Below are positions 7,510 through 28,347 of a DNA stretch of 64,000 nucleotides, piece after piece; the first letter of the stretch is position 1, and each line of letters opens with the position of its first letter. A model generated the notes under the pieces. That model was not told where the DNA came from. It did not search any database and worked only from the letters and a program-made list of their open reading frames with translations. Both the position numbers and the translations under genes were made by a program. Location: NCBI GenBank assembly GCA_026388695.1, contig JAPLJH010000092.1:1-64000 (forward strand), given 5' to 3'. This stretch comes from Deltaproteobacteria bacterium (GTDB lineage: Bacteria > Desulfobacterota > Desulfobulbia > Desulfobulbales > Desulfurivibrionaceae).

Positions 7510-7628
7510 GTAACTGTTCAGCCGCGCCGCTTCGCTGCTGCCACAGATGCGCGGAAGAGGTCTGCGAAGTGTGCTATGCACATGAGCAGGCCGATGACAA
7601 CGCAGATGTGGTGCGGCTGGGCAGTTAC
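7510..7628 (+). repeat. Structured intergenic repeat element, copy A
   Basis: Core CCACAGATGCGCGGAAGAGGTCTGCGAAGTGTGCTATGCACATGAGCAGGCCGATGACAACGCAGATGTGG matches copy B at 28240-28347 (reverse strand) with 3 substitutions and 1 indel in ~72 nt; outer arms GTAACTGTTCAGCCGC/GCGGCTGGGCAGTTAC pair. Confidence 0.85.
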
Positions 7629-7631
7629 ATA

Positions 7632-8801
7632 TCAGCTCTCATTCCTGCGCAGAAATGTCGGCCGATCGTAGTCCTGCTCGTTTAAAATATTGTTGGCATA
7701 GGATCTCTGCATACCGTTTGCCACAGCGCGGCCTGCGGCCATGCCCTGTTCGCCTCTTCTAAACGGCAAAGGCTGTGCCGCAGGTTCGCGTTTTTTCGGC
7801 ATGAGCTGCACCCTGTCGGACAACTCTTCGATTTCCTCCACGGTATCGCGGATACCTGTGGCAATAACCGTTACCTGCAACTCATCGCCCAGGTTCTCGT
7901 CAAAAATAACACCTAGGATAATGTTGGCGTCCTCATGCACTTCTTGATAAATTTTTGTGGTTGCCTCGGTCACTTCCGGCATAGTCAAGGTCTCACGGCT
8001 GGCCGAGATATTGACCAATACACCCCTGGCGCCATCGATGCTGATATCCTGCAGCAGCGGGCTGTTGATCGCCATATTCACCGCTTCCACCGCCCGGTTT
8101 TCGCCCACCCCGTATCCTGAGCCCATGAGCGCCTGACCCATCTCGTTCATGATCGCCCGCACATCGGCAAAGTCGGGGTTGATGTAGCCGGGAAGGTTGA
8201 TCAAATCAGTGATGCCCTTCACGGCCTGCACCAGAACATCATCGGCCATCTTCATCCCGTCGATGAATCGGGTTCCCTTCTGGCTCAGGGAGATAAGCCG
8301 GTCGTTGGGAATGGTGATGATGGTGTCCACATGCTCCTTCAAATTCTTCCAGCCCAGTTCCGCGTTTTTCATCCGGGCCCTGCCCTCGAAGGCAAAGGGC
8401 TTGGTCACTACGCCCACGGTGAGCGCTCCCAGCTCCTTGGCAATCCGGGCGATAACCGGTGCAGCCCCGGTCCCGGTTCCGCCTCCCAATCCGGCGGTGA
8501 CAAAAACCATGTCACAGTCCTTCAACTGTTTTCTGATTTCATCGATGGACTCCTCTGCCGCCTCTCTACCCCTTTCAGGGTTGGCTCCGGCCCCAAGTCC
8601 CTTGGCGACATTCTTGCCAAGCTGCAACCGGACATCGGCCTTGGATTTCTCCAGGTCCTGGATATCGGTGTTGCCGGCAATGAACTCCACCCCGAGGATG
8701 TTGCTGTCCACCATGGTGTTGACCGCATTACCACCGCCGCCGCCAACGCCAAAAACCTTGATCTTTGCCCGAGACTCTTCTTCCGCGAATTTAAAAGTCA
8801 T
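7632..8801 (-). CDS. ftsZ: Cell division protein FtsZ
   Basis: IKVFGVGGGGGNAVNTMV...GLGGGTGTGAAPVIARIAKELGALTVGVVTKPF. Confidence 0.98.
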   Translation of the reverse strand: MTFKFAEEESRAKIKVFGVGGGGGNAVNTMVDSNILGVEFIAGNTDIQDLEKSKADVRLQLGKNVAKGLGAGANPERGREAAEESIDEIRKQLKDCDMVFVTAGLGGGTGTGAAPVIARIAKELGALTVGVVTKPFAFEGRARMKNAELGWKNLKEHVDTIITIPNDRLISLSQKGTRFIDGMKMADDVLVQAVKGITDLINLPGYINPDFADVRAIMNEMGQALMGSGYGVGENRAVEAVNMAINSPLLQDISIDGARGVLVNISASRETLTMPEVTEATTKIYQEVHEDANIILGVIFDENLGDELQVTVIATGIRDTVEEIEELSDRVQLMPKKREPAAQPLPFRRGEQGMAAGRAVANGMQRSYANNILNEQDYDRPTFLRRNES

Positions 8802-27539: not shown

Positions 27540-28226
27540 CTACATCACCACGGTCCGCTTGATGTACTTCACCACCTCCGCCGGGTCGTCCATGACCTGG
27601 AAGTAGAGCAGATCGTCCTCGTTGATGTACCCCTCGGACAGCATCCGCTCCTTGATCCAGTCCACCAGGCCGCCCCAGAAATCAGAGCCCACCAGAATAA
27701 CCGGAAAACGCTTCACCCTCTTGGTCTGGATCAGGGTCAGCGACTCGAACAGCTCGTCCATGGTGCCAAAGCCTCCGGGCATCCCGATAAAGGCCATGGA
27801 ATACTTGACAAACATCACCTTGCGCACGAAGAAATACTTAAAATTCATGGGCAGATTGGTAAAGGGATTGGGCTCCTGCTCAAAGGGCAGGTTGATGTTC
27901 AGCCCGATGGAAAGGCCCTCGGCAATAGCCGCGCCCTTGTTGGCAGCGGCCATGATCCCCGGCCCGCCGCCGGTGATGATCCCGTACCCGGCCATAGCCA
28001 GATCAAGGGCAATCTGCTCGGCCAGCTTGTAGTAGCGGTCATCCTGGCCGGTTCTGGCGGAACCGAACATCGACACCGCAGGCCGTCCGATGTTGGCCAG
28101 GGTGTCAAAGCCCTCGACAAACTCACTCAAGATACGAAACAGCCGCCAGGAATCCCCCACCTGAAAATTATCCAGCGAATACTGCTGCCGTTCGTCAACA
28201 ACCGTCCCGGTCTTGGTCAATCTCAT
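27540..28226 (-). CDS. LOG-family / TIGR00730 Rossmann-fold protein
   Basis: VSMFGSARTGQDDRYYKLAEQIALDLAMAGYGIITGGGPGIMAAANKGA...GMPGGFGTMDELFE (PGGxGTxxE). Confidence 0.92.
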   Translation of the reverse strand: MRLTKTGTVVDERQQYSLDNFQVGDSWRLFRILSEFVEGFDTLANIGRPAVSMFGSARTGQDDRYYKLAEQIALDLAMAGYGIITGGGPGIMAAANKGAAIAEGLSIGLNINLPFEQEPNPFTNLPMNFKYFFVRKVMFVKYSMAFIGMPGGFGTMDELFESLTLIQTKRVKRFPVILVGSDFWGGLVDWIKERMLSEGYINEDDLLYFQVMDDPAEVVKYIKRTVVM

Positions 28227-28239
28227 ATCCGATCTCCTC

Positions 28240-28347
28240 GTTAGCGATCACAGGGTGCCACATCTGCTTTGTCATCGGCCTGCTCATGTGCACTAGCACA
28301 CTTCGCAGACCTCTTTCGCGCATCTGCGGCACCCTGTAATCGCTAAC
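28240..28347 (-). repeat. Structured intergenic repeat element, copy B
   Basis: Reverse strand GTTAGCGATTACAGGGTG-[core]-CACCCTGTGATCGCTAAC; core ~95% identical to copy A at 7510-7628; ends just upstream of the RBS of the LOG gene. Confidence 0.85.

Follow-up and report, generated by a model that had tools for sequence, protein, structure and literature searches.

The 64,000-nucleotide stretch of DNA analysed here (the window) carries two hairpin-forming elements, copy A at 7510-7628 on the forward strand and copy B at 28240-28347 on the reverse strand, which are very probably members of a family of non-autonomous transposable elements (miniature inverted-repeat transposable elements, MITEs) of the order Desulfobulbales. 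Rfam covariance models gave no match to the window at the gathering score, and no description of the family was found in the open-access literature searched, while a description in a subscription journal could exist. Judged by Rfam and this literature, the family appears to be undescribed: it is order-wide, has a constrained, strand-specific interior and is placed preferentially at stop codons. MITEs are usually defined by their ends only. The present family, which has reached copy numbers of dozens or more in many species and keeps its interior fold by compensatory change, makes it testable whether the RNA or single-strand structure of a mobile element matters for its spread. Otherwise its copies are liable to be mistaken for conserved regulatory RNA in Desulfobulbales genomes.

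The intact unit measures about 151-153 bp and consists of a leader of about 45 nt followed by a 106-nt hairpin, which forms its 3' part. The leader, present upstream of many copies with the consensus GTAACTATCCAGCTTGATGCCGGAATTGAACGAAAACCACGGAAT, starts with GTAACTATCCAGC, and the hairpin has the 3' end GCTGGACAGTTAC; these two are terminal inverted repeats, the inverted match covering the first 13 nt of the leader. The start of the leader is repeated in the 5' arm of the hairpin, GTAACTGTTCAGCAG. Among 37 copies the leader start agreed with the copy's own 3' end at 8.2 of 13 positions and with the 3' ends of other copies at 7.1 of 13 (0/2000 permutations). In leader-bearing copies from the own genome and from other genomes, with the unit taken as running from the leader start to the 3' end, the identity between the last 8 bases on the left and the first 8 on the right was 0.64, against 0.38 at 9 bp and a background of about 0.27-0.29. 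Among 69 loci picked by the leader motif alone, and not by their flanks, 27 showed a perfect 8-bp duplication and 43 agreed at 6 or more of the 8 positions, whereas shuffling gave means of 0.45 and 2.73 and maxima of 3 and 9. Target duplications were also seen in other families, at L363 (CATATTTT), L366 (GTTCTTTT), L376 (GAATATGA), L377 (CATAAATT) and L379 (GATCCCAT). Terminal inverted repeats combined with an 8-bp target duplication identify the element as a MITE. A 52-bp copy at L299, made up of the leader and CGTTAC, is flanked by a perfect 8-bp repeat and could have arisen by internal deletion or represent a mobile form of very small size.

Copy A, 119 nt long, corresponds to the element's hairpin part (recognised by sequence, BLAST and covariance model) and lies antisense to ftsZ, which occupies 7632-8801 on the reverse strand. 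Its 5' outer arm GTAACTGTTCAGCCGC (7510-7525) pairs with its 3' outer arm GCGGCTGGGCAGTTAC (7613-7628), with the latter reaching to within 3 bp of the ftsZ stop codon. Comparison of copies revealed an insert in the 5' arm, GCCGCTTCGCTGCTG (7526-7540), which is shared with L009, L021, L025, L031, L038 and L042; at L241 an insert matching it occurs in both arms, and the two inserts are complementary. The conserved core of copy A (7541-7611) contains a GA/GA mismatch, a k-turn-like internal loop, the GGYCUGC/GCAGGCC stem, a GAA/GA loop and an apical stem-loop. It is 71 nt long and not 72 as first given, but the three substitutions and one loop indel said to separate it from the core of copy B were recovered, as were the nested pairings described for it. 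Copy B is a hairpin part of 108 nt with the GTTAGCG..CAGGG arm subtype, its 5' outer arm GTTAGCGATTACAGGGTGCC lying at 28328-28347 and its 3' outer arm GGCACCCTGTGATCGCTAAC at 28240-28259, all on the reverse strand. It stands immediately upstream of GAGGAGA, a sequence resembling the ribosome-binding site of the next gene downstream (27540-28220, reverse strand), whose product we take, from its sequence, to be a LOG/TIGR00730-like protein.

Two points about these copies had to be amended. The outer arms do pair with themselves and evolve by paired changes, but calling them entirely different in the two copies was too strong, since other copies bridge A and B; across copies the arms nearly always start with GTAA and end with TTAC. 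The hairpin that had been delimited is real, but intact copies extend beyond it by the leader. Neither a recognisable leader nor an 8-bp repeat was found at 7510-7628 or 28240-28347, and we read copies A and B as old or decayed members of the family, assigned to it by homology of the hairpin.

The existence of two copies, as originally proposed, is not a chance resemblance, since the core gave 40 BLAST matches in the genome that contains the window (G000; 2.58 Mb in 114 contigs, 87% complete) and a covariance model built from 25 copies matched about 50 same-strand places in it, the other matches being reverse-strand echoes of the palindrome. The model search was a check suggested by the first-pass annotation, which had named a lack of further copies, or homologues without covarying arms, as evidence against its reading; what we found was the reverse on both counts. 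All 17 sampled genomes of the genus were positive. Across the order 124 of 194 sampled genomes gave a match, though ordinary hairpins may account for matches near E = 1e-8; because reverse-strand echoes of true copies score equally high, matches with E above about 1e-10 were not counted as members. Several other families of Desulfobulbales gave strong matches that share the core, the leader and the 8-bp repeats, and carriers include Desulfobulbaceae and Desulfurivibrio MAGs, from whose names the order is taken to be Desulfobulbales. Outside the order, two of 247 sampled genomes of the phylum had one weak match apiece, plasmid and phage collections held no match to the element, and neither of two matches in IMG/VR was the element. 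The family is essentially absent outside the order Desulfobulbales. The element is short and non-coding, and indels among its copies are not in threes. One genome, G064, contains many near-identical copies with perfect 8-bp repeats, which indicates recent movement there.

Comparison of orthologous loci revealed that the element occupies a given site in some genomes and is missing from it in others. G000, G095 and G064 have the full hairpin at site A, G098 has a core-less form of it, and no element lies there in the other genomes in which the site was read; the arms in G000 and those in G095 are set apart by a paired change (GTAACTG/CAGTTAC as against GTAACGG/CCGTTAC). Site B is filled in G000, G064 and G102 and empty elsewhere, except for a core-less form in G095. 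Arms that have lost the core were also seen at L248, L252 and L279. The locus pairs L052/L120 and L113/L125 each include a filled and an unfilled member, and the difference runs both ways. At all of these older loci, A and B included, the alignments do not show clean junctions of the single-base insertion kind. The occurrence of the element at sites A and B is patchy when set against the similarity of the genomes, which implies losses or repeated insertion at the same place. We also considered that the arms might be pre-existing palindromes that received a core; this was ruled out, as the arms are part of the moved unit. Two observations concern the orthologues of 7510-7628. In G102 (L174) a different repeat, of the ATTCCGGCGAAGGCCGGAATCC type, lies between the arms GTAACAACTC and GAGTTGTTAC, and looks as if another payload sat between similar ends. 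At L163-L171 most element-free genomes carry another hairpin-like repeat, GACGCAAAG...CTTTGCGTCTCCGCG, after ftsZ. The first-pass annotation had wavered between a non-coding RNA family and a folded, MITE-like mobile element, and the latter half of this reading is supported by the terminal inverted repeats, the 8-bp duplications, the copy number, the intergenic scatter and the element-free orthologous sites.

Its other suggestion, selection on structure, also holds. The 106-nt hairpin has the consensus GTAACTGTTCAGCAGTGCCGCAGATGCGCGGAAGAGGCCTGCGAAGTGTGCTATTGCACATGAGCAGGCCGATGACAAAGCAGATGTGGTGCTGCTGGACAGTTAC in most copies and is predicted to fold into a 22-bp closing stem, the GA/GA mismatch, a short stem, an internal loop, a 7-bp stem, the GAA/GA loop and a 6-bp apical stem, in that order; in variants the 5' arm (that of copy A, for example), the 3' side or both carry inserts. 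As a sequence pattern the internal loop fits a k-turn (a 3-nt bulge followed by G·A and A·G), with GGCC-GAU-GA opposite GA-GGCC at positions that are invariant or conserved in 19/20. Over 25 copies 96.6% of the pair cells were standard and 17 pairs showed double changes, a result that none of 500 shuffles equalled, and controls with slid partners scored far lower. Among 92 copies taken from numerous MAGs, G·U combinations numbered 422 and A·C combinations 52, or 156 and 45 once majority-G·U pairs were removed; these pairing counts refer to sequences and not to independent events. The plus strand was predicted to be the more stable in all 40 own-genome copies examined. From the paired changes, the G·U excess and the plus-strand stability, a strand-specific fold is shown to be under selection. 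Repair of the palindrome by its own arm was rejected as a source of this pattern, because it would yield perfect pairs on both strands, in contrast to the G·U excess on one strand that is observed. A type-2 core occurs in G064 (L277, L280, L281, L285, L293) and in G004 (L361, L372), where it has many copies; its stems differ in sequence from those of the first core, whereas its layout and its GAA/GA loop do not. In G064 a second repeat, AGCTGAGTTGAGCAGCTTGTCTGCTCAAACGAAACTTATACCCTCTGGGTGCA, lies inside hairpins at one position (for instance at L262, L265, L270, L273, L275 and L287) and elsewhere forms tandem arrays.

Placement relative to genes is uneven. With simple script-based gene calls, the 3' end of the element fell within -6 to +8 of the stop codon of an antisense 3' neighbour in 41 of 52 elements (observed range -4 to +7), against a mean of 20.2 and a maximum of 29 when elements were placed at random within the same gaps. 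The terminal GTAA itself supplies the stop codon, a TAA, in 13 cases. The 5' end shows little such proximity (7/39). Either target choice or purifying selection could have produced this bias.

These features invite the explanation that the element is a cis-acting RNA, such as a 3'-UTR stabiliser, a processing site or an attenuator, which is kept at each locus for the sake of the neighbouring gene and has spread only secondarily. In favour of such an RNA are the strand-specific fold and its compensatory changes, the close association with stop codons and the position of copy B next to a sequence resembling a ribosome-binding site. However, the strand that forms the G·U-rich fold is usually antisense to the abutted gene, so that the mRNA of the neighbour carries the less stable complement; moreover, most members of the genus have no element at site A or site B, and the flanked genes differ from case to case. 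We consider a locus-by-locus regulatory role unlikely. A MITE, for its part, requires no conserved inner fold, and transposition alone does not account for the core. It could be hypothesized that movement of the element depends on its own folded plus strand, as RNA or single-stranded DNA, through protein-binding motifs such as the k-turn-like loop and the GAA/GA loop, which would make it a structure-recognised mobile element and not a conventional MITE recognised by its ends alone. If true, the fold and not the sequence would be recognised by a host- or element-encoded factor, and this would explain why two cores whose stems are unlike share one architecture. We regard this extension as unlikely.

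The nature of the mobilising enzyme bears on a special case of the MITE explanation, in which the element is an internally deleted IS66-family element moved by an IS66 transposase. IS66 elements have GTAAGCG ends and 8-bp repeats (PMC11946415). A GTAA terminus with an 8-bp repeat is also found on IS66 copies of the same order, and an IS66 end in two genomes of the same family, GTAAGCGCTCAGCA, matches the MITE arm GTAACCGTTCAGCAG at 12 of 15 positions. This match is suggestive at best: 12/15 agreements arise by chance too in those loci, a more extended similarity to IS66 ends was looked for without success, and the MITE termini are mostly GTAACTG or GTAACTA, with GTAAGCG in a minority. Furthermore, none of the 17 genus genomes has a DDE_Tnp_IS66 match, and in the 194 genomes strong MITE and IS66 matches (E<1e-20) are not positively associated (5 with both, 27 with the MITE only, 69 with IS66 only). 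Descent from IS66 is, in our view, a serious candidate that nonetheless falls somewhat short of being probable. A REP-type palindrome mobilised through single-stranded DNA by a Y1 transposase (RAYT or IS200-like) would agree with the hairpin form and its strand asymmetry, and 15 of the 17 genus genomes do possess Y1 transposases. Against this stand the exact 8-bp duplications at copies, which to our knowledge are not expected of Y1 enzymes, and the lack of enrichment of copies beside Y1 genes, with a single instance in 94 kb, which is itself an IS200-like element nested inside a copy; a Y1 route is scarcely credible. The 750-bp element at L215, with a Y1 gene and a matching 8-bp repeat, was considered as a parent and dismissed, as it proved to be an IS200-like insertion nested in a MITE copy; this insertion (L215:1280-2029) encodes a 142-aa Y1 transposase, has the hairpin ends CCGCCTTTAGGCGGG and CCTCCGTCTTTAGACGGAGG and sits in the 5' arm of the MITE copy. 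No autonomous element with the same terminal and 8-bp repeats was found in about 1.3 Mb of loci or at 20 solitary ends in G064, the genomes being incomplete.

Under the MITE explanation a transposase acting in trans would insert the unit and duplicate 8 bp of the target, the cutting being done by a DDE transposase that is perhaps IS66-like. The unit would land in intergenic DNA, mostly with its 3' end a few bases from the stop of an oppositely oriented gene. Its plus strand would fold, as RNA or as single-stranded DNA, and the fold would probably help the element itself to move or to survive, and not the individual genes beside it.

Several known repeat families resemble the Desulfobulbales MITE in part. 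The bcr1-type repeats of the Bacillus cereus group are short, interspersed, intergenic and MITE-like and often lie in UTRs, and conserved secondary structure has been reported for bcr10 and bcr18 (PMC3446304). The Desulfobulbales MITE is likewise a short interspersed intergenic repeat, but it inhabits a different host phylum and is distinguished by its 8-bp duplication, its leader and its 22-bp closing stem. bcr1 itself has a conserved RNA fold, and differs in sequence and in target duplication. NEMIS/Correia, ERIC and RUP are listed as bacterial MITEs (PMC3733652). They are transcribed elements that resemble the Desulfobulbales MITE in being short and non-coding, with terminal repeats and gene-adjacent insertions. 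These elements use a TA target of IS630-like enzymes, whereas the Desulfobulbales MITE has an 8-bp duplication and a stronger strand-specific internal fold. REP/BIME sequences, with their RAYTs, are high-copy intergenic hairpins as well, and REPs measure 20-40 bp and bear GTAG or CGTC tags (PMC3733652); the Desulfobulbales MITE, in contrast, is about 150 bp long, has a target duplication and shows no RAYT linkage. With the IS66 family it has GTAA termini and the 8-bp target duplication in common, but it contains no transposase gene and its ends beyond GTAA mostly differ.
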